From Vibrio pomeroyi (GTDB lineage: Bacteria > Pseudomonadota > Gammaproteobacteria > Enterobacterales > Vibrionaceae): a DNA stretch of 64,000 nucleotides. Made by a program: the position numbers and the translations under genes. The notes under the pieces were generated by a model. That model saw nothing but the letters and a program-made list of their open reading frames with translations, did not search any database and had not been told where the DNA came from. The stretch lies in contig NZ_AP025506.1 in NCBI RefSeq assembly GCF_024347595.1, positions 2,542,001 to 2,606,000 on the forward strand, written 5' to 3'. Shown piece after piece: positions 16,121-36,425 of this stretch (position 1 is the first letter of the stretch; each line of letters starts with the position of its first letter).

Positions 16121-17110
16121 TTAACCGCCGATTGACGCCAAGTTTGGAGTCATGCCGCTGTTGCCATCATGTAAGAAGTGGCTAACGGACTTGGTTTGAA
16201 GCTGAGCCTGAATTCGGTCAATGAGCTCTTGCTCTTGTTGATCTTCTTGAATCAGATCTCTCAGTTCAACACCGTGGTCGCCAAACAGACATAGGTGAAG
16301 TTTACCGGTCGCAGAAACACGCAGGCGGTTACAACTCTCACAAAAGTCTTTCTCGTAAGGCATGATCAAACCAATTTCACCCTTGTAGTCTGGGTGGACA
16401 AACACTTGTGCAGGCCCATCATTAACGGCTTTGACTTTCAGTAGCCAACCGTTAGCAATAAGCTGATTGCGAATAGCAACGCCCGATACATGGTGTTTAT
16501 CAAACAACTCGTCCATCTCGCCGGTTTTCATCAGCTCGATAAAACGTAATTGAATGGGTTTGTCTTTGATCCAATTAAGGAAGGCTGGTAATTCCTGACT
16601 GTTGAGGTCTTTCATCAATACAACGTTGACTTTGACTTGTTCATAGCCAACCTCAAACGCTTTATCAATACCTCGCATAACCTCAGTGAACTTATTCTCA
16701 CCAGTGATCTGATGGAACATACGTGAATCTAAGCTATCCACGCTGACGTTTATATGGGTTAAACCAGCATCACGCCACTGCCCTACTTGTTTCTCCATGC
16801 GATAGCCATTTGTTGTCGTGGCTACTTTTTCGATGCCTGGAGTAGAAGCAACGGTATGTATGATTTCAGGAAAGTCTTTACGCAGACTCGGTTCTCCGCC
16901 TGTAATGCGGATCTTTGAGGTACCACAATCTGCAAACGCTTTTACAATGCGTTTGATCTCGGGAACACTTAAAAAAGACGAGTTTTTTTGCCCTGACGGT
17001 TTATAACCATCCGGCAAGCAGTAAGTACATTTAAAGTTACAGACGTCTGTAACCGACAAGCGCAAGTAATAAAACTTGCGATGGAATCTATCTTCGAATT
17101 GTTGCGCCAC
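16121..17110 (-). CDS. moaA: GTP 3',8-cyclase MoaA (radical SAM)
   Basis: First enzyme of molybdenum cofactor synthesis. The N-terminal radical-SAM cluster site CNFKCTYC, the [10 protein letters not shown] segment, the C-terminal second cluster ligands [18 protein letters not shown] and the functional terminal Gly-Gly (ASIGG) are all present. The start is placed at GTG 17110: GGAAAGG lies 6 nt upstream and the resulting VAQQFEDRF aligns with other MoaA N-termini; the longer frame would use TTG. Preceded by a Moco riboswitch-like leader. Confidence 0.95.
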
Positions 17111-17116
17111 GGAACA

Positions 17117-17241
17117 CCTTTCCAAACACGGGAGGCATAATCATTTCCAATTAAGCCCTTGTGACAACATGTCACTGGCTCTTGATGCGTATCGGTACAG
17201 CAAATACCACTGTGCGACTTAGCATGCGAGAGCTCGGAGTT
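17117..17241 (-). ncRNA. Probable Moco (molybdenum cofactor) riboswitch in the moaA leader
   Basis: The minus-strand leader holds several conserved-looking pieces: AACTCCGAGCTCTCGC near the 5' end, a GTGACA-TGT-TGTCAC hairpin, then GCCTCCCGTGTTTGGAAAGG whose last part is the ribosome-binding site of moaA. This arrangement, with the Shine-Dalgarno inside the element, matches what I know of the Moco RNA ahead of enterobacterial moaA. It should reduce translation when cofactor is plentiful. A covariance-model search was not possible. Confidence 0.72.
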
Positions 17242-17445
17242 ATGGCAACCGCACGTTATATTCATACGCGCAGTAGCTGAGTAATAAAATACTTAATATT
17301 TGTACGTGAATCTAGCTCTGATGGTAAAAAACGGGTCACATCGGCAAAAAAAACGTATCAAACGCTCAAAATAACTCTTGTTGAGTATATAGCGAGAAGC
17401 ATTTAACCTAAATTATAGTTGGTAATAATCTAACAAGAACAAAAA

Positions 17446-18794: not shown

Positions 18795-20183
18795 TTACTG
18801 CTTCGCATTCCACGTTTGCAATTTACGGTATATCGTTGATGGACTGACATCCAAGAAACCAGCCGCGCGAGGGATGTTGCCATCACACGCTTTTATGGCC
18901 TGTTCGATTGCCGTTTTCTCAGTGATCCACAATGGGAAAATATCTTTTACTGTGATGTCTTCACTCTGCTTCTCTTTCAGGCGCAGACTGTTTTCAATCG
19001 GCTGATTCAATGGTGGCGGAAGCATGTTCAGAGTAATCTCTTTACCATTATTCAACACCACCACATTCCGCAATACGTTTTGTAGCTGACGAACGTTACC
19101 CGGCCACTCATATTGGTTAAAGCGATCCAACACTTCTTGCGCAAAACGAACAAACGCCTTGCCTTCTTCAACCGACATATAACCCAACAGTGAGTATGCA
19201 ATCTCGATAACATCTTCACCACGCTCACGCAATGGCGGCAAGTGCAGAGGAATCACGTACAAACGGTAGTATAAGTCTTCTCTAAAGCGACCTTCTTGCA
19301 CTTCTTTCCAAGGGTCACGGTTGGTCGCACAAACAAAACGAACGTCCACACTCTTCATCTTCGAAGAGCCCACTTTTTGAAAAGTACCGGTTTGAATAAA
19401 ACGCAGAAGCTTGGTTTGCAGTTCAAGATCCATCTCACACAGCTCATCGAGGAACAGTGTGCCTCCATCAGCTAGCTCAGCAGCACCTTGACGATCGGTT
19501 GCCGCCCCCGTAAACGCCCCTTTTACGTGGCCAAACAGCTCACTTTCAATCAAGTCTTTAGGAATTGCCGCACAGTTGATGGCGATGAAAGGCTTATCGC
19601 CACGCTTGCTAGCCGCGTGAATCGCTTCTGCACATACCTCTTTACCCGTACCACTTTCACCGGTAATGAAAATACTCGCTTTACTTGATGCTGCAGAATC
19701 GATCGTTCGGTAAACCTGCTGCATGGTTTGACTACTGCCAATGAAGCCTTGGTAATTCTGGTTTCCCGGATGTTCAGAGCTGTTCTTGAGCTTGGTCGCT
19801 TTGCGGATCGCGTTGTTCACCGTAATACGAAGTCGGTCGGCTTCACACGGCTTGATAAGGAAGTCCTGAGAGCCATGACGCATCGCTTCTACGGCAGTAT
19901 CGATAGAGCCGTGCGCTGTCATGAAGATAACGGGCACTTCAGGGTATTTTTGTTTTACAGCAAAGAGCACGTCCATACCCGTCATATCAGGCAGACGTAA
20001 ATCTAATAAAATGAGGTCAGGGATTCGATGATTCAAACTCTCAATTGCATCGCGGCCAGTGCCGACAATGTTGATATCAATTTCGAGCGGTGTAAGATAC
20101 GAGCGATATAACGCTGCGACTGAAGCCGTATCCTCCACCATCAACAAATACTTTGATTTGTTATCTAGCGTTTTTGATTGCAT
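18795..20183 (-). CDS. luxO: Quorum-sensing response regulator LuxO
   Basis: Sigma-54-dependent activator that, when phosphorylated at low cell density, turns on Qrr small RNAs. Receiver domain with Asp61 in [16 protein letters not shown]+ domain with Walker A GESGTGKE, the sigma-54 contact loop GAFTGA and Walker B-like GGTLFLDE; C-terminal Fis-type helix-turn-helix ([20 protein letters not shown]). 462 residues. A LuxO-binding palindrome, a sigma-54 promoter and qrr1 lie immediately upstream on the other strand. No constitutive-activating change is evident. Confidence 0.97.
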
Positions 20184-20332: not shown

Positions 20333-20426
20333 ATGACCTTCGGGTCACCTAGCCAACTGACGTTGTTAGTGGACTGAGTGTCCACAAACGTAAGCCAGTA
20401 GAACAATTACTACTGGCTGTTTTTTG
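20333..20426 (+). ncRNA. qrr1: Quorum regulatory RNA Qrr1
   Basis: Hfq-dependent small RNA that controls the LuxR/HapR-type master regulator and other targets. It contains a 5' hairpin (TGACC-TTCG-GGTCA), the invariant Qrr core CTAGCCAACTGACGTTGTTA at 20349-20368, a second hairpin (GTGGAC/GTCCAC) and a terminal hairpin AGCCAGTAG/CTACTGGCT followed by six Ts. Position, divergent from luxO with a sigma-54 promoter and LuxO site, is that of qrr1 in vibrios. Ends are estimates. Confidence 0.95.
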
Positions 20427-23426: not shown

Positions 23427-24800
23427 TTATGCTTCAGCAGTAACCGCATTAACCTGTGTCTGTTGATCCGCTTGTTCTTTATCAAAACCTTCATGCAGAT
23501 GGTAGTAACGCTTGTAAACAAGAGCACTTACTGTCATTAGAATGGCAGGCAGTCCTACCATCATAAATTGTAAACCCATAATTGTGCTGTCAGACTGTTC
23601 CACGTTTGGTACGTAACCCACGATTGATAAGCCGATACCCACGATGAAACCACCCGCTGCACCTGCAAACTTCACAAGCATAGTTTGAACAGAGAAAATA
23701 ACACTCTCGCTACGACGACCTGTTTTATGCTCACCGTAATCCACAACATCCGCTAGCATAACCGTTTGAAGTGCGTTTGCGATGCCCACACCAAACTTGA
23801 TTGCCGCACCTGCGATACCAATTAAAATCGCGTTACCTGGAGCAATGAAGCCCATGATTAGCAGAGTGATACAAGACAATACAGGGAAACCACAAGCGAT
23901 AACCCATAGGTGCTTACGTGGCAATGCAGAAGCAATACGAGGGAACAAGAACACACCAGCAACTTCAGCAATACCTGCAACCATCATATAAACAGGGAAC
24001 AAGTCTGCGTTGCCTAATGCGTAAGAGAAGTAGTAAATGGCAAAACCACCCACTAGCAAGTTAGCGATTTGGAACGACAATACCGTACCGATAAGTGCTT
24101 TTAGTTGGTCATTTTTGCCGATGATAACCAGTACATCTTTAAAGCTAAAACGTTCAGCAGGTTTAGCATTCGCTGGTGCAGATTTTTCTTTTACATTACG
24201 AGCAATCAAGAATGCGCTCATCACAAACAATACCGCAATCAACATAGCAACGTTGAAGAAGCCTTGTCCTTGGTCACCATCACCCAACTTACCAACAATG
24301 TGTAACCCGTAAGTACCCGTAATAAACCACGCTAAGCTAGCAAACAGTCTTGGCCATACCACAAGCTTTTCACGCTCTTGGCGAGAACTTGATAGCGCAG
24401 GAATCATAGACCAGTATGGAATATCCATAATGGTGTAAGTAAGACCCCATAGGATATAAGCAGCAGCCGCATAAATGTATAACGTAGTGCCTTCGAACAT
24501 GTGCGTACTGAAAAGACCAACGAGCACTACCGCATTTAATAAGGTACCAATCACAATCCAAGGTCGGAATTTACCAAACTTAGATCGTGTGTTATCAACG
24601 ATAACGCCCATCATTGGGTCGGTCACCGCATCGACGATACGAGCGGCTAAAAAGATGGTACCCACGAACGCAGCTGAAAGCCCGGCAACATCCGTAAAAT
24701 AGAACATCAGGAAGATGTAGATCGGAGCACAGGCAAAGTCTTTACCGAGAGCCCCAAGTCCATAAGATAATTTGGTTTGTAGAGTAATTTGATCAGACAT
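23427..24800 (-). CDS. GPH-family galactoside:cation symporter (MelB-like)
   Basis: Inner-membrane sugar/cation symporter of the glycoside-pentoside-hexuronide family, 457 residues with twelve predicted helices. Family signatures: SYGLGALGKDFACAP at the N-terminus, ARIVDAVTDPMMGVIVDNTRSKFGKFRPWI in the first loop (residues about 52-81), and LADVVDYGEHKTGRRSE near helix 10. Start chosen at ATG 24800 (AAGGAA 6 nt upstream); the longer frame adds 18 unlikely residues. It shares a LacI-type operator with the neighbouring galactosidase genes, so melibiose, raffinose-type or lactose substrates are likely; which one is inferred. Confidence 0.88.
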   Translation of the reverse strand: MSDQITLQTKLSYGLGALGKDFACAPIYIFLMFYFTDVAGLSAAFVGTIFLAARIVDAVTDPMMGVIVDNTRSKFGKFRPWIVIGTLLNAVVLVGLFSTHMFEGTTLYIYAAAAYILWGLTYTIMDIPYWSMIPALSSSRQEREKLVVWPRLFASLAWFITGTYGLHIVGKLGDGDQGQGFFNVAMLIAVLFVMSAFLIARNVKEKSAPANAKPAERFSFKDVLVIIGKNDQLKALIGTVLSFQIANLLVGGFAIYYFSYALGNADLFPVYMMVAGIAEVAGVFLFPRIASALPRKHLWVIACGFPVLSCITLLIMGFIAPGNAILIGIAGAAIKFGVGIANALQTVMLADVVDYGEHKTGRRSESVIFSVQTMLVKFAGAAGGFIVGIGLSIVGYVPNVEQSDSTIMGLQFMMVGLPAILMTVSALVYKRYYHLHEGFDKEQADQQTQVNAVTAEA

Positions 24801-25220
24801 AATATTTCCTTCAGGCACGTAACCCCATCTCCTAACAGACGTTGAAACGCTCACCTTTTATTTATAATAATTCATCCACTTAAGTTCCGTTTTAGAGCCA
24901 CTCTTTGGTCGCTTCTTAAAACACTCAAGTATCAAGTCCGACGCTAATGTAACCATTAGTCTTAATTGATACTGTGATCAACAACCACTTCATGGAAACG
25001 TTTTCAGTCCAATTATCAAAGTGAGAGATCAAACAATAAATCACTCTTATTTTTAGAGAAAAAGCGCGATTTAAGTCATGAAAATCATCTACTACGCACT
25101 CACCTTTATGAGAACGATTACAGAAAGCGAATGCTACGACCTGTTATCAACATGGGTTCTTACTGACAATAACGAGCTCGATTCATTTTTGTGTAGCAAA
25201 AGTAACGTTGTTAATGGCAA
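24801..25220. other. Promoter region of the symporter gene
   Basis: About 420 bp between the symporter start and the alpha-galactosidase terminator. It contains the LacI-type operator at 24993-25006 and a TGTGATC half-site (24974) that could be part of a weak CRP site. A 66-codon plus-strand frame runs into the terminator and is not believed. Confidence 0.5.
24993..25006. promoter_or_regulatory. LacI/GalR-type operator 1 (symporter)
   Basis: TGGAAACGTTTTCA, a palindrome with central CG typical of LacI-family sites. The inverted form is repeated exactly at 27476 and 28137. It lies 192 bp upstream of the symporter start. Confidence 0.82.
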
Positions 25221-25279: not shown

Positions 25280-27397
25280 TTAATCGATACGCTCAAACTT
25301 AATCAACATCGCGGTTTCAGCATCAAGGATTGGCATTGTCAAACCAACCTCAGCACACCATGCTCCAGACAGCTCGCAACCAGATTCCGTCCAAGGTGGT
25401 TGATAATTAACGATGTCGCTGTAATTAGCAGGCTTATCTATCACAGACACCTTATAAATACTTTGCGGATCTAACCCAGGGATTCGTAAGTGCCCACTCA
25501 GTGAATTAGTTGGCATCGCCAGTTGTGCCACCATAATAACAGCCTCTGATGTATCTTCTGACACCACCGCATGTATTTGATGAGCGTTATCGTCTGTCGG
25601 AATTCGCCAGGTTCGTCCACTATGCAGCAATGGGCGCAACATCTTATGTAAACGAATATAGTGCTCAAAACCCTGTTTCTCTTCTTCGACTTCTTTCACA
25701 GGATCTAATTCAATACCCATGTGACCAAAAAGTGCCGTGAGCCCCCGAAACTCGATGCTATGGCGGCGACGAGTACTGTGGCAGTGGCTTGCTCCGATAT
25801 GGCTTCCCATCACCTCTGGCGGGAAAAAGTAACTCATTCCACGCTGAATCGTTTGTCTTTCCAGAGCATCATTGTTATCAGATGCCCAAAAACGTTGTGT
25901 ACGCTTAAGGACTTCAAAATCAATACGTCCACCACCCGCTGCACAGGATTCGATATCGACTGCTGGGTGTTTCGCTCGCACTTTGTCGACCAGCTCATAA
26001 TAGCGAGCCGTTTGTTGGTGAGCCGCCGCTTTGCCCAAGTGTGCAGGTTGTACAACTTCTCGGTTCATATCCCACTTGATGTAAGCGATATTGTATTGGC
26101 TCAAAAAATGGTCAAGACGCTCAAATAAGAAGTCGAATGCCTGTTGATTCTGGAGATCGATAACATATTGATTTCGCCCTGTCGGCTGATCATAGCCGTC
26201 AACCGCCAGCAACCAATCAGGATGCGCTCGATATAAGTCTGAATCTTTGTTGATCATCTCTGGCTCGAACCACAAGCCAAATTCCATACCTAGTTGATTC
26301 ACGTGTTCGACAACAGGCTTTAAACCATTCGGGTATTTTTCTTCATCTAAGAACCAATCGCCTAATGCTGCTTTATCGCCATCACGCCCTTTAAACCAGC
26401 CATCATCAATGATAAAGCGCTCTACTCCCATCTCAGCGGCTTGGCTAGCCATCGACATAATGTAATCAGGGTCATGGTCGAAATAGATACCTTCCCATGT
26501 ATTCAGGTGGATAGGTCGAGGTTTTTGTACGAAAGATTCCGGCAAAATTGAATGACGTACGTGTGAATGGAATTGGTGACTCATTCCATTTAAGCCGGCA
26601 GCACTGAAGCTCGCGTAAAGCCAAGGCGTTGTTAAGGTTTCGCCTTCATCCAATGCGATCTCGCCCGGAAGATAAATCACTTCGGCTTGCACATAGCGAC
26701 GACCATCTGCTTTTACATCAGCACGTAATCTGTGGTTTCCACTCCAAGCGAAGTGAATCCCCCATACATCACCGTTCATTTCATTGAAGTTGGATGTACC
26801 GACAACCATTGCAGGGTAATGCTCATGAGACGTTCGTCCGCGACGGTTTTCTTGTTGATACCCGCCTTGTTGTAAGGATTGACGCACCGTTTGGAACTCA
26901 TGAACCCAACGGCCGTAATACGTCATAAGCTCATTGGCTCTAGCAGGTAACGGCAAGGTATTTGCCAGACGGCTCACCTGATAAAGCCCAGGTTTCATAT
27001 TGGTTAGCGTGTGACGGGATTTAACGACGTCATGTCCATCAAGGCATAGCTCCGTTGTCAAACGTAAGCCAGCTCGTAGGTCTTCACTCTCAATGAGTAA
27101 GCTCGATGGCGTCTGTTGAATCTCCGTAATAGAAAAAACTGGCGCCCAATCCATGCCATCTCGGTGCCCTTCCAGTGCAGGACTGCTGAAAACGCCACGT
27201 CCGAGCTCGGGACTCAGTGACATTGCAACATCATTATCAAGGCGGCCATATGGAACAGGCCTTTCAAGAGAAACACGGAAGTTGGCTAAATCACCACGAA
27301 CGGGGACTCCCCAATGAAGAATTTCGGCAAAATCGCCAAGTTCCACAATCAGTTGCGAGTGTTTACCGGTAATATCAATTAGGGATTTATTCGTCAT
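25280..27397 (-). CDS. Alpha-galactosidase, glycoside hydrolase family 36
   Basis: Hydrolyses terminal alpha-galactosides such as melibiose or raffinose sugars. 705 residues without a signal peptide, hence cytoplasmic. N-terminal beta-supersandwich, then a TIM barrel with LNTWEGIYFDHD, RFIIDDGWFKGRD and FGLWFEPEMIN. The nucleophile is Asp443 in IKWDMNR; the proton donor is probably the Asp of WASDNNDA (about residue 507). The C-terminal beta domain is complete. A LacI-type operator lies 79 bp upstream. Separated from the symporter by its own terminator, so the two are probably separate units under one regulator. Confidence 0.93.
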   Translation of the reverse strand: MTNKSLIDITGKHSQLIVELGDFAEILHWGVPVRGDLANFRVSLERPVPYGRLDNDVAMSLSPELGRGVFSSPALEGHRDGMDWAPVFSITEIQQTPSSLLIESEDLRAGLRLTTELCLDGHDVVKSRHTLTNMKPGLYQVSRLANTLPLPARANELMTYYGRWVHEFQTVRQSLQQGGYQQENRRGRTSHEHYPAMVVGTSNFNEMNGDVWGIHFAWSGNHRLRADVKADGRRYVQAEVIYLPGEIALDEGETLTTPWLYASFSAAGLNGMSHQFHSHVRHSILPESFVQKPRPIHLNTWEGIYFDHDPDYIMSMASQAAEMGVERFIIDDGWFKGRDGDKAALGDWFLDEEKYPNGLKPVVEHVNQLGMEFGLWFEPEMINKDSDLYRAHPDWLLAVDGYDQPTGRNQYVIDLQNQQAFDFLFERLDHFLSQYNIAYIKWDMNREVVQPAHLGKAAAHQQTARYYELVDKVRAKHPAVDIESCAAGGGRIDFEVLKRTQRFWASDNNDALERQTIQRGMSYFFPPEVMGSHIGASHCHSTRRRHSIEFRGLTALFGHMGIELDPVKEVEEEKQGFEHYIRLHKMLRPLLHSGRTWRIPTDDNAHQIHAVVSEDTSEAVIMVAQLAMPTNSLSGHLRIPGLDPQSIYKVSVIDKPANYSDIVNYQPPWTESGCELSGAWCAEVGLTMPILDAETAMLIKFERID

Positions 27398-27475
27398 TTT
27401 TTTAACCTTAACGCGTTTAATTACCCCGTATCATAGTTATTGAGCCCAGAGTTTCTGTGATCAAACTCGAAATCA

Positions 27476-27489: not shown

Positions 27490-27705
27490 GTAAATATCTA
27501 AGACTGATAACTTTGGTAAATAGCTCCTAATTCAAAGATTTAGATTGACCACCATTCCATCTCATATTGCCTACCTCTAGGTAGAATTGAACTTTCCACT
27601 CTAAATAAAGCAATATAAAACGATAATTAACGGCAATTTAATCCTTTAAATTCAGCAAATTAAATCAAAGTTCCCATTAACACATAGGCTAAAATACATT
27701 TCCTC
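27490..27705. other. Part of the 830-bp gap between alpha-galactosidase and porin
   Basis: AT-rich, no reading frame with a ribosome-binding site. Nothing recognisable before the promoter-like sequence that starts at 27706. Confidence 0.4.
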
Positions 27706-27734
27706 TTGAACTGATCACATCACACTCGTATTCT
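27706..27734 (+). promoter_or_regulatory. Sigma-70 promoter-like sequence for candidate small RNA
   Basis: TTGAAC, exactly 17 bp, TATTCT. Start predicted at about 27741. The spacer contains TGATCACATCACA, which could be bound by CRP or another factor. Confidence 0.5.
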
Positions 27735-27740
27735 TAGATC

Positions 27741-27895
27741 TTCGAGTACATCTATGAAGTGTCTCTCTGGGTCCTAACTTTTACATTCCAGCTTGACGGT
27801 ACAGAACACAATGCTTGTAGCCTTGCTGCTGCATTTGCTTTGATACTTACTTCCTTGTCTCACGAGCCCAGTTATCATTAACTGGGCTACTTTTC
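27741..27895 (+). ncRNA. Candidate small RNA complementary to the porin start region
   Basis: A stretch of about 155 nt between a promoter-like sequence and a hairpin (AGCCCAGTTA-TCAT-TAACTGGGCT, 27865-27888, then ACTTTT). Bases 27754-27765 (ATGAAGTGTCTC) are the exact reverse complement of 28218-28229, which cover the Shine-Dalgarno and most of the start codon of the downstream porin gene; G-U pairs extend the duplex by one on each side. This is the usual layout of a translation-blocking small RNA. The terminal T run is short, so it may instead be a long porin leader that folds back on its own start site. Not a known family to me. Confidence 0.5.
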
Positions 27896-28136
27896 CCCAA
27901 AGCCCTCGAACAACTGACACTCAAAGCACACCACGCCCACTTCACCTCTACTTTCAAGACAAACAACAGCATCATCACTCCTTCTAAACCACCGCACAGC
28001 ACTGAGTAAAGAAAACGATTCCACTTAAAAGTCACAAATCCTTGCGTAAAACCGTCTCTACAAGCCCAATAATCAGATCAAAATCACACAAAATAATCAC
28101 AAACCCATCAATAGCATGAAAATGCCAACTTCATCA
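27896..28136. other. Region between candidate small RNA and porin operator
   Basis: No gene recognised; a 62-codon minus-strand frame here has no ribosome-binding site. Around 28073-28088 a sequence (inverse TGTGATTTTGATCTGA) matches a CRP half-site plus part of the other half. Confidence 0.4.
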
Positions 28137-28150
28137 TGAAAACGTTTCCA
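28137..28150. promoter_or_regulatory. LacI/GalR-type operator 3 (porin operon)
   Basis: TGAAAACGTTTCCA, identical to operator 2. It ends 77 bp before the porin start, placing it over the likely promoter of porin-malM-like-lacZ. Confidence 0.82.
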
Positions 28151-28227
28151 GAGTTTATTTACACTCTCGCTCGAGTTAGGACTCAAACATAAAAATATCC
28201 ATAAATAAAAAATAATGGAGACACTTC

Positions 28228-29472
28228 ATGAAACAAAAAATGCTAGTCAAAGCATTAGGATTCACTCTGTCCCTCGCCCCATTAGTCAGCTTCGCTGCAG
28301 TGGAGAACGTAACGTATTTTGGTTATGCAAAATGGGGCAACATCTACACCGACAATGACCAACATAACGACGGCAAAGGAGAACGCAACGACGTTATTCG
28401 AGCAGGCCAAGGTTACGGTAACTACCGTTTAGGTAATGAACTAAATTGGTGGGAAGCGGGGGTGAAAGCCGATGTATGGCGTGACAATGACGCCTATTTT
28501 GACACCACGATTTATCTAGGTAGTGGTGATAGCTGGGGAGACGTGAGTACGATTCAGCTTTGGTCAGCAGGCCATGGGCTTATCGACGGCCAACCCAACG
28601 CAAAAATTTGGGCAGGTGAACGTTTTTACCGTCGCCACGAAGTCCACATGATAGATGTGAAGTACTGGGATACATCCAGCACCGGTCTTGGTATTGAAGA
28701 TTGGGATCTCGGCTTTGCTGATGCTCACTTAGCTTGGATGGCACCAAACTCTTCAAGTGACGATGGACGCAGCCTTCATAACATCGATGCCCGCTTAAGT
28801 GGCATTGAACTGAGTGAAACTGCGGACCTAACACTCGGCCTAAACTACGTAACTACGCAGAACTCAAGCTACGACGATAAAGACATTACTACTTCTGGCG
28901 CAATGCTCTCTGCTCTTTACCGTCAAGCTTGGAACTACGGTTCAAACACCTTGGCTTTCCAATATGGTACCGATGCGTTGGCAGGCGGGTTAATGAGTGC
29001 TGAAGGTGGCTCAAACAGAAAATACAGCACGGGCGTGGAACACGATGGTTCTAGCTGGCGCCTATTTAACCACGGTGACTTGAATATCAGTGAAGATGTT
29101 CAAGTGATGTACTCCATCGCTTATCAAGACAAAAACCTAGATAACAACGATGGTGAGAAGTGGTTCAGTGTCGGAGCTCGTCCTCAATATGCTTGGACAG
29201 ATTACATGTCGACAGCATTAGAGGTGGGTTACGAAACGGTAGAAGCTCAAAACGGCTCGGGCACCAACGATATGTATAAAGTGACCGTGGCTCAAATGTT
29301 CCAAGCTGGAAAAGGGGTATGGGCTCGTCCATCTATTCGTATTTTTGCGACGTACTCTGAATCCAACAACGAATGGGACCGTGGTAACGAAGTGTATGGC
29401 ACGGCGACGAGCATCAATGCAGAGACCGTCGATGAAATTACCTTTGGTTTCAACGTAGAAACTTGGTGGTAA
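28228..29472 (+). CDS. LamB-type carbohydrate porin
   Basis: Outer-membrane sugar-selective porin of the maltoporin family. Signal peptide of about 23 residues (ending SFAA), then the LamB-like beginning (VTYFGYAKWGN), the YRLGNE motif shared with maltoporins, many alternating aromatic strands and a C-terminal aromatic (ETWW) typical of beta-barrel insertion signals. 414 residues. Its genetic neighbours make alpha- or beta-galactosides the likely cargo, an inference. The ribosome-binding site (GGAGA, 28217-28221) and start are complementary to the candidate small RNA upstream. Confidence 0.88.
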   Translation: MKQKMLVKALGFTLSLAPLVSFAAVENVTYFGYAKWGNIYTDNDQHNDGKGERNDVIRAGQGYGNYRLGNELNWWEAGVKADVWRDNDAYFDTTIYLGSGDSWGDVSTIQLWSAGHGLIDGQPNAKIWAGERFYRRHEVHMIDVKYWDTSSTGLGIEDWDLGFADAHLAWMAPNSSSDDGRSLHNIDARLSGIELSETADLTLGLNYVTTQNSSYDDKDITTSGAMLSALYRQAWNYGSNTLAFQYGTDALAGGLMSAEGGSNRKYSTGVEHDGSSWRLFNHGDLNISEDVQVMYSIAYQDKNLDNNDGEKWFSVGARPQYAWTDYMSTALEVGYETVEAQNGSGTNDMYKVTVAQMFQAGKGVWARPSIRIFATYSESNNEWDRGNEVYGTATSINAETVDEITFGFNVETWW

Positions 29473-29577: not shown

Positions 29578-30474
29578 ATGAAATTAAAATCATTGGTAGT
29601 CATTGTCGCGGCATTAACTTTAAGCGCATGTAGCGGCATACCAGAACAAGAACTCAATACTGATTTCAATAGCAGTGCATGTTGCTCTCAACTCAGCACG
29701 CTCCCTGTCACTCAATTGTCTATTCCATTCCACCAGCAAGTCATCATGGACGGTGATTTACCGACCCTGCCCGCTTCAACACTGAATGAAAACGTAGCAG
29801 CGAACAACCAACGGTTTCCAACGACCGCATATCAAATTAGTGACGATGCAGAATCGCTCTCACTGTTAGTGCGCTCATACATAAAAGATGATGGCTTGTT
29901 CGCTCCATCGATCTATATCTTTGATAAGCAATGGCAACTGCTCGGCCAGTACAGCGCGAACGACTTCACTTATTACCCAACCGCTATGCAAGGGCTAGAA
30001 AGAATTGAGGTATCCATTTCACTTATGCCTCAACGAGACAATGCACAATATGTTGTGGTTAGTGCCGATAGCACCAAATTAGACAGCACTATCAGTCGTA
30101 TTCACCCTGAAGAGCTGTATTCAGAATCTCAGCAAATCATCGGCAATAAGCAACTGCCTCTAACCGCCACATTTAGCAATGTTGGGATCATTGATCTTAC
30201 GGCGAGCGAATCTACAAACAGTGCGGTATTGACTCTCTTGGCTAAGCTTGGTGTTTCATCAAATACTCAACCTGAAACCTTAGGTTCGCAGCCACCTTCT
30301 CAGCCATCACCTGTCGAAACGAACCAACAAGCACAATGGTTGAACGTTCAACAAGAAATTGACCAAGCACTCGATAGTAACGACGTCAAACAAGCCGCAT
30401 TTATTGCTAACCAAGCGGCCGAACAGGGCTTGCCACAAGCGAAAGATTATTTACTAAAACGACTCGCTGAGTAG
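29578..30474 (+). CDS. MalM-like lipoprotein
   Basis: Predicted outer-membrane-associated lipoprotein: a short signal peptide ends at lipobox LSAC (Cys18). The body resembles MalM, the periplasmic protein of maltose operons (segments QQVIMDGD, APSIYIFDKQWQLLGQY, QYVVVSADSTKL). The Pro/Gln-rich linker near residue 235 leads to a TPR/Sel1-like tail (DVKQAAFIANQAAEQGLPQAKDYL). It lies 105 bp after the porin and 110 bp before lacZ, in one likely operon. Its role is unknown; a link to the porin is inferred from MalM-LamB pairings. Confidence 0.75.
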   Translation: MKLKSLVVIVAALTLSACSGIPEQELNTDFNSSACCSQLSTLPVTQLSIPFHQQVIMDGDLPTLPASTLNENVAANNQRFPTTAYQISDDAESLSLLVRSYIKDDGLFAPSIYIFDKQWQLLGQYSANDFTYYPTAMQGLERIEVSISLMPQRDNAQYVVVSADSTKLDSTISRIHPEELYSESQQIIGNKQLPLTATFSNVGIIDLTASESTNSAVLTLLAKLGVSSNTQPETLGSQPPSQPSPVETNQQAQWLNVQQEIDQALDSNDVKQAAFIANQAAEQGLPQAKDYLLKRLAE

Positions 30475-30536: not shown

Positions 30537-33686
<3,150 letters not shown>

Positions 33687-33945: not shown

Positions 33946-34950
33946 ATGGCTACCATTAAAGATGTTGCGAAAGAAGCAGGCGTGTCAATTGCGACCACCT
34001 CTCGAGTGATCAACAATGCGCCTCACACCAGTGAAACCGCCATTACAGCAGTAAAGGCGGCAATGGAGAAACTTGGCTATCGCCCAAATGCCAACGCTCG
34101 TGCACTGGTCAGCAAGTCTTCAAACGCGATTGGTGTGCTGGTTAATGATGTTTCTGCCCCTTTCTTTGGCTCGATGATCAAAGCCATTGATACCGTGGCA
34201 AGTGAACAAGAAAAACAGTTACTGATTGGCAGTGGGTATCATGACGCGACTAAAGAGCGCAATGCGATTAACTTGCTGATCAACAGCCGCTGCGAATCTC
34301 TCGTGGTTCATAGCAAAGGCATTAGCGACGAAGAATTGGTTAAGCTAGCGAATGAAGTGCCCGGCTTGGTTCTCATCAACCGAATTGTTCCCGATATCGA
34401 AAGCCGCTGTATTGCTCTCGACAACCGCCGAGGCTCTTACATCGCGACGGAATATTTGATTAAAAACGGTCACAAGCACATCGGTTACATCTGCTCGAGT
34501 CACAACATTGAAGATGCTCATGATCGCTTAGCGGGTTATTTGGATGCACTGAAAGACAATGGTATTGAACCTAGTGACGAATACATCGAATACGGCGAGC
34601 CTGACGAATTAGGTGGTGAACAAGCCATGGTTAACCTAATGGCTAAAAACACCGACATCACAGCGATTGCCACTTATAACGATTACATGGCTGCAGGCTG
34701 CTTGGCACTGCTGCAAGAAAACGGCATTCGAATTCCAGAAGACATGTCCGTTATTGGGTTTGATGATGGACACATTGCACGCTTCATTTACCCTAGATTG
34801 ACGACCATTCGCTACCCAATTCAAGTCATGGCAAATCAAGCGGTTAAATTATCTCTTCAACTCGCAAGCGATGAACCGAAAGAACAGTCAGAACATAAGT
34901 TGTTTATGCCTATACTGGTGCGCAGAGCTTCGGTTAGAAACATCAGTTAA
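33946..34950 (+). CDS. LacI/GalR-family transcriptional regulator of the galactoside locus
   Basis: 334 residues. N-terminal helix-turn-helix TIKDVAKEAGVSIATTSRVIN and hinge helix ANARALVS, followed by a periplasmic-binding-protein-like effector domain (IGVLVNDVSAPFFGSM ... AIATYNDYMAAG ... SVIGFDDGHIARF). The HTH is of the GalR subtype, whose targets have a central CG, matching the three TGGAAACGTTTTCA-type sites in this locus. It has no such site at its own promoter. Likely a repressor relieved by a galactoside or galactose; effector unproven. Confidence 0.9.
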   Translation: MATIKDVAKEAGVSIATTSRVINNAPHTSETAITAVKAAMEKLGYRPNANARALVSKSSNAIGVLVNDVSAPFFGSMIKAIDTVASEQEKQLLIGSGYHDATKERNAINLLINSRCESLVVHSKGISDEELVKLANEVPGLVLINRIVPDIESRCIALDNRRGSYIATEYLIKNGHKHIGYICSSHNIEDAHDRLAGYLDALKDNGIEPSDEYIEYGEPDELGGEQAMVNLMAKNTDITAIATYNDYMAAGCLALLQENGIRIPEDMSVIGFDDGHIARFIYPRLTTIRYPIQVMANQAVKLSLQLASDEPKEQSEHKLFMPILVRRASVRNIS

Positions 34951-35831: not shown

Positions 35832-36425
35832 ATGAGTACCATTTTAATTGCGATCATTGCGCTAGCCGTTTTAGCCGCTGTTTTTGGCGCTATTTTGGGC
35901 TTTGCTTCTATCCGATTTAAAGTAGAAGCTGATCCTATCGTCGATCAAATCGACACCATTTTACCGCAAACTCAATGTGGCCAATGTGGCTACCCAGGTT
36001 GTCGTCCATACGCAGAGGCGATCGCTAACGGAGACAAGATCAACAAATGTCCTCCTGGCGGCCAAGCAACCATTGAGAAGCTAGCAGACTTAATGGGCGT
36101 AGAAGTTGAAGACTCCGCTCATGACTTAGATAACAAAGTAAAAACCGTTGCTTTCATTCATGAAGATATGTGTATCGGCTGTACCAAGTGTATTCAAGCT
36201 TGTCCTGTTGACGCCATTGTTGGTGGCACCAAGGCACTGCACACAGTAATCAAAGATGAATGTACAGGTTGTGATCTATGTGTCGCACCGTGCCCTACTG
36301 ACTGTATCGAAATGATTCCAGTGGCAACAACGACTGAAAATTGGAAATGGCAGATGAACATCATTCCTGTTACAGATATCACTAACCAAGCAACTGATGC
36401 GACTGCGTCAGAGCCTAAGGCGTAG
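35832..36425 (+). CDS. rsxB: Electron transport complex subunit RsxB/RnfB
   Basis: Iron-sulfur subunit anchored by one N-terminal helix. An Fe-S domain has [16 protein letters not shown] with a further Cys at CPPGG, then two ferredoxin-type [4Fe-4S] motifs, [16 protein letters not shown] and [16 protein letters not shown]. 197 residues. Separated from rsxC by 7 bp. Confidence 0.96.

Follow-up and report, generated by a model that had tools for sequence, protein, structure and literature searches.

A probable conserved small RNA of Vibrio with predicted two-block pairing to the mRNA of a neighbouring galactoside porin

Between positions 27741 and 27895 of the 64,000-nucleotide stretch of Vibrio pomeroyi DNA analysed here (the window), there quite probably lies the gene for a separate, structured and probably dedicated small RNA (sRNA), which, judging from the sequence and its relatives, would lower the expression of the neighbouring galactoside porin. 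The initial annotation of the window had proposed a locally encoded sRNA covering the porin start site, and four comparative findings support this proposal. The RNA structure is conserved, as is most of its promoter core; the RNA is present in 23 of 25 porin genomes, and the other seven carriers have an orphaned or broken porin locus; every one of the 31 copies in the genus retains two pairing blocks, which are weaker or missing in the pair of porin genomes devoid of the RNA; and two conserved islands are separated by a poorly conserved spacer and by an operator word and presumed promoter belonging to the porin.

In the mechanism that we propose, the exposed loop of the sRNA (27769-27780) would first contact a small 5′-terminal hairpin of the porin mRNA (28173-28184), after which the pairing would extend to a second sRNA stretch (27754-27765) lying over the Shine-Dalgarno sequence and start codon (28218-28229), with the A-rich leader between the two blocks looped out. 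Ribosomes would be blocked at the porin start and the mRNA would probably be destabilised. Porin transcription itself would be set by a LacI-type repressor and probably also by CRP, and the sRNA, because the LacI-type operator word is absent from its own promoter, would set a threshold, such that porin is produced only once the induced mRNA exceeds the sRNA. If real, this would be a new Vibrionaceae sRNA family, with regulator and target in one sugar-use locus, and it would bear on the question of why porin synthesis from a lactose-type operon has to be braked after transcription.

The galactoside locus

The window carries a galactoside (lactose/melibiose) cluster in which Pfam matches identify, on the minus strand, a sugar transporter gene (MFS_2; 23427-24854) and a divergent alpha-galactosidase gene (25280-27397; Melibiase, 5.2e-121) and, on the plus strand, the LamB-type porin gene that is the proposed target (28228-29472; LamB, 1.5e-82), a gene for a MalM-like protein (29578-30474; MalM, 5.9e-15), a beta-galactosidase gene (30585-33686; glycosyl hydrolase family 2 domains) and a LacI-type regulator gene (33946-34950; LacI). 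A LacI-type operator word on the plus strand at 28136-28151 recurs in identical form at 27475 and as a reverse copy at 24993. Upstream of the porin promoter, the plus-strand stretch 28073-28088 is a putative CRP-like site, as judged by eye against the consensus. Spacing and conservation point to TACACT at 28160-28165 (plus strand) as the porin −10 element, so that porin transcription would start near 28172 and the second of the pairing blocks described below would coincide with the start of the porin mRNA.

Elsewhere in the window, a Qrr quorum-sensing sRNA (20334-20426) adjoins a LuxO-like regulator gene (18795-20183), as is ordinary for Vibrio, and a molybdenum cofactor riboswitch (RF01055), likewise ordinary, lies on the minus strand at 17099-17251.

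Structure, promoter and ends of the RNA

The region 27741-27895 (plus strand) is a conserved structured RNA, as is evident from its fold, from pair counts and from matches to two models of the RNA, R1 and R2. The fold has a z score of −4.5, with none of 200 shuffled sequences as good, and standard pairs fill 84.9% of pair cells over 30 distinct sequences, as against 34-53% with slid partners, and 14 of 36 pairs have both-side changes, in an alignment that was fitted to its own model and leans towards the structural result. The inner stems, the hairpin carrying the second pairing block and the terminator-like hairpin are paired in 97-100% of cells and the outermost stem in 87%, while a variable hairpin is poorly resolved (42% and 74% of cells).

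The flanking signals reported in the initial annotation are found exactly where it had placed them, namely TTGAAC and TATTCT at a 17-bp spacing (27706-27734, plus strand), which constitute the predicted −35 (27706-27711) and −10 (27729-27734) elements of the sRNA promoter, and the hairpin AGCCCAGTTA-TCAT-TAACTGGGCT at 27865-27888 (plus strand), a terminator-like structure followed by a short interrupted U run; the ends of the RNA are themselves predicted. The promoter matches the consensus at 8 of 12 positions, and a simple scan lists no promoter and, on account of a poor T run, passes over the 27865 hairpin as a terminator; in the aligned copies, the U run after this hairpin is mostly short or interrupted, with at most five U in a few of them. 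Yet this weak consensus match and poor U run go together with a conserved promoter core and a covarying 3′ hairpin: among 17 aligned species rows, 15 retain the −10 element (CGTATTCT) and at least 15 the CTTG of the −35 element, and the hairpin is paired in 99.6% of cells, with both-side changes in four of its nine pairs. The −10 element differs in copies L095 and L096. In these two loci (at about 1440-1515) the palindrome CCTTAC-N4-GTAAGG stands in place of the sRNA −10 region, and about 25 nt able to form a further hairpin are inserted ahead of the first pairing block.

The further claim that the RNA contains no coding frame holds broadly, save for one seven-codon ATG...TAA frame at 27754-27777, which we reject as coding, its ATG being gone in L008, L017, L020 and L096 and the frame differing in other clades.

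A short U run, and the location of both pairing arms on the same strand 453 nt apart, would also suit a single long leader, in which transcripts from 27741 continue past a weak terminator as far as the porin operon, with pairing of the two halves serving as an on/off switch or with processing of the 5′ part as in Vsr217-malK; the excerpted text of PMC8265627 supplies a precedent in the vsr217-malK transcript, described there as having no predicted terminator. We nevertheless regard this as unlikely, given the strong covariation of hairpin 27865-27888 and the distribution of conservation. Among 11 species, conservation is concentrated in one island at about 27700-27900, with a dip at the variable hairpin, and another at 28080-28240, with very little in the spacer at 27900-28000, and within the porin island lie an operator word, the putative CRP-like site and a −10-like sequence, with the second target block as the presumed 5′ transcript end. 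As far as conservation can tell, the two islands favour two transcripts, a separate sRNA and a porin mRNA, over one long leader.

Pairing with the porin leader

The pairing noted at the outset stands up to a letter-for-letter check: sRNA block 1 (ATGAAGTGTCTC, 27754-27765, plus strand) is the exact reverse complement of target block 1 over the porin Shine-Dalgarno sequence and start codon (28218-28229, plus strand), and, as had also been observed, U-G pairs at 27753:28230 and 27766:28217 lengthen the match. Each of the two 12-mers is unique in the window. A second block had been overlooked. The stretch 27769-27780 (GGGTCCTAACTT, plus strand), situated mostly in the loop of the hairpin 27767-27791, can pair with 28173-28184 (GAGTTAGGACTC, plus strand) at the predicted 5′ end of the porin mRNA through 12 pairs, two of them G-U, and this target can also form a 4-bp hairpin with the loop UAGG. 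The two blocks are in matching antiparallel order, such that 27 nt of the sRNA could pair with both leader ends and 33 nt of A-rich leader would be looped out.

The argument that a 12-nt match at this spot is unlikely to arise by chance is upheld by a comparison of 54 ORF start regions, none of which shares as long an exact complement with 27741-27895 as that of the porin (12 nt, followed by one of 10 and three of 9). Pairing with the seed stretch is likewise strongest for the porin start (−34.5 kcal/mol, the next being −25.2), which also comes first, narrowly, in whole-RNA cofolding (−19.3 vs −19.0 for the start at 35832), an energy which none of 300 shuffled leaders attained (best −18.3).

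In the 32 rows available for pairing analysis (31 genus copies and L031), block 2 retains 12 of 12 pairs throughout and block 1 retains 10-12 of 12, with at most two mismatches, and the predicted interaction energy of the 32 cognate pairs averages −21.3 kcal/mol. Conserved complementarity to the porin ribosome-binding region, as expected of a trans-acting porin-repressing sRNA, is present in all 32. When L154, from genome G299 of a second genus, is included, 14 distinct rows keep 328 of 336 possible pairs, compared with a mean of 325.2 when the leaders are re-dealt among the rows by permutation (p 0.012); without the second genus the figure is 305 of 312 (p 0.06).

Both-side changes are seen at two positions of block 1, from T-A to C-G in L095 and L096 and from G-C to A-T in L154, and both also fit changes in the sRNA's own stem. 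Elsewhere, pairing is kept through G-U changes (L004, L011, L014, L020, L022, L023 and L077) or broken (L008, L017, L024, L094, L095, L096 and L154). The cognate interaction of L094 is weak (−9.1 kcal/mol), and when the window exchanges partners with L094 or L095, the pairing is equal to or better than that of the cognates. Compensatory change is limited to two positions, and the pairing signal is carried mostly by conservation. The expectation that seed and target would covary in relatives is accordingly realised at those two positions, with plain conservation at most others, and the converse case, named in advance as telling against the sRNA, of a porin start changed without a matching seed change occurs in part, in L094, L095 and L096, accompanied there by partial matching change and an intact block 2. 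Block 1 has a second role on either side, forming stems within the sRNA and comprising the Shine-Dalgarno sequence and start codon in the leader, so that each could be kept separately.

Distribution and natural losses

A DNA search gave matches in 27 of 196 genus genomes, of which 25 are real, the matches L026 and L027 being unrelated. With strict filters, such that weak relatives may be missed, model R1 found matches in 31 of 227 genus genomes, 30 of them real and with 31 copies (G039 has two), and model R2 in 34 of 329 family genomes, 31 of them real, these being the same 30 and G299 of the second genus. Left out of the counts are the R1 match in G062 and matches in G265, G302 and G315, all of which have little beyond a terminator hairpin and lie at other loci, together with two reverse-strand hairpin matches. 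The spread of the sRNA amounts to about thirty species, and the carriers named by a pattern scan, which comprised 38 stretches including chance matches in unrelated phyla, include V. jasicida, V. mytili, V. splendidus, V. fortis and V. aestuarianus. The divergent alpha-galactosidase gene adjoins the sRNA in all 32 loci in which the flanks were read (26 + 5 + 1). In G039 the locus occurs twice, on two contigs (L013 and L028), and the alpha-galactosidase frame of L013 is split into two ORFs.

A porin search with a threshold of E 1e-60 gave 25 positive genomes out of 227, of which 23 also have the sRNA (Fisher 3e-23, kinship uncorrected). The two porin genomes in which the sRNA is not detected are G141 and G167, at whose loci model R2 gives nothing up to E 10. 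Their leaders, which read GAGTTCGCACTC...GAGAAACTTCAT in G141 and GAGTCTGGCTCT...GAGACACACCAAT in G167, are predicted to interact with the 32 sRNAs at mean energies of −8.9 and −10.4 kcal/mol, respectively, compared with the −21.3 kcal/mol of cognate pairs. In G141 block 1 is short by one pair only and the loss falls chiefly on block 2; the two hairpins, at the 5′ end and at the start, persist and the loop letters are altered, a change to be anticipated if the sRNA made use of those letters. Conversely, all 28 of the 227 genomes that have the two-block pattern in its exact form are sRNA carriers, and the remaining two carriers, G086 and G023, have one G-U-compatible change each.

Seven sRNA carriers are without a full porin match, the porin locus being orphaned or broken. 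In two of them (G112 and G203) the porin gene is broken, and the other five share a common deletion junction at which the start codon and Shine-Dalgarno sequence have been lost and both blocks kept. These five porin-deletion loci, in which the leader is that of the lac operon, are L003, L006, L010, L011 and L083; 1 of 24 block columns varies among them, compared with 27 of the 110 columns in the rest of the leader (p 0.017, kinship uncorrected). The arrangement would be an unusually clean one, in which each pairing block has a set position and either partner has been lost naturally, the sRNA where the porin persists and the porin where the sRNA persists, and it would make a good model of sRNA-target co-evolution.

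The persistence of both blocks where there is no translational start would fit a leader that is mainly a decoy, the sRNA acting chiefly on other mRNAs and being soaked up by the porin/lac leader when galactosides are present, for which chb-ChiX, in the excerpts of PMC4098024, is a known precedent. Such a role is decidedly unlikely in our estimation, as the blocks in the porin-less loci may be relics and a coarse pattern search of the window's own genome gives no surplus of other sites, with 40 places for the loop block against 71 in a reversed-pattern control and 25 against 30 for a third conserved stretch. For block 1 the same coarse search gave 45 places against 32 in the control, and among the 17 examined, the porin and two others, L125 and L146, precede ORFs of more than 200 aa. 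L125 and L146 resemble the block-1 target with two and three mismatches, just before ORFs of 232 and 319 aa, respectively, and are possible minor targets or chance occurrences.

The retained sites also invite a more speculative extension of the dedicated sRNA that we prefer, doubtful as it stands, namely a self-contained RNA titration circuit travelling with the sugar locus, in which the sRNA would clamp the 5′ hairpin and ribosome-binding site, the leader would act as a dedicated sRNA sink and the sites would be selected even after porin loss, with the effect of adjusting the remaining operon genes or releasing other targets. Block 1 of each partner does have other reasons for conservation, but mere coincidence, with a real sRNA having no action on the porin, is highly improbable: the two blocks are in matching order, are kept in every genus copy and are weakened where the sRNA is absent, and no shuffled leader out of the 300 pairs as well.

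Comparison with known systems

No Rfam 15 family matches the region 27600-28260 at its gathering threshold. The best match below threshold is to VrrA (RF01456) at 27819-27895, with 20.6 bits against a gathering threshold of 50 and an E value of 0.5. VrrA is likewise a Vibrio sRNA acting on the 5′ region of a porin mRNA; however, the match is confined to the variable hairpin and terminator, and the VrrA target is ompA, at another locus.

As described in excerpts of PMC8265627 and PMC10370196, Vsr217 (ctrR) is made from the malK leader under MalT, without a predicted terminator, and acts on fbp in trans; like the present RNA, it is an sRNA of Vibrio that precedes a sugar-transport gene in the same orientation and belongs to a disaccharide regulon. 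No homologue of the present RNA turns up at the presumed malK locus, model R2 giving no match up to E 10 at L158, the 4.1-kb stretch around the best MalK match of the window genome. Also set aside is srvg23535 of V. alginolyticus, the mutant of which uses melibiose less well, and which, according to the excerpted PMC6186989, adjoins rctB and is a different gene. A Photobacterium transcriptome paper (PMC3505737) contains nothing on lactose or galactosidase.

Within the open-access literature, a scope outside which most subscription papers and supplementary tables fall, we recognised no description of an sRNA at this locus. There is reportedly an earlier transcriptome catalogue of a Splendidus-clade strain, in which the present RNA could bear a catalogue number. 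The sRNAs of type I toxin-antitoxin systems are encoded next to a single target, with which they share a long perfect pairing stretch; here, in contrast, the target is a sugar porin and not a toxin.

The closest functional parallels are with ChiX and MicX. In the account given in excerpts of PMC4098024, ChiX continuously represses the chitoporin mRNA chiP by base pairing, beneath a sugar-sensing repressor, and can itself be titrated by an operon mRNA. The present sRNA is predicted to work in a like manner, a sugar-porin mRNA being repressed beneath transcriptional control, but its sequence and hosts are other than those of ChiX, and the two are likened by description, not letter for letter. 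In general, chiX is not known to be encoded beside chiP, and a two-block clamp on both the 5′ end and the start site is, to our knowledge, specific to the present case. MicX of Vibrio cholerae, for its part, lowers the outer-membrane protein mRNA vc0972 via a region near or overlapping the translational start, as excerpted from PMC1976385; by the same excerpts it differs in overlapping an upstream ORF and in being unlinked to its target, and it too is likened by description. On the best reading, by function and description, the present sRNA would work like ChiX or MicX, such that what appears to be new is a two-block sRNA linked to a galactoside porin, and what is already known is the functional kind to which it would belong, the porin-repressing sRNAs.
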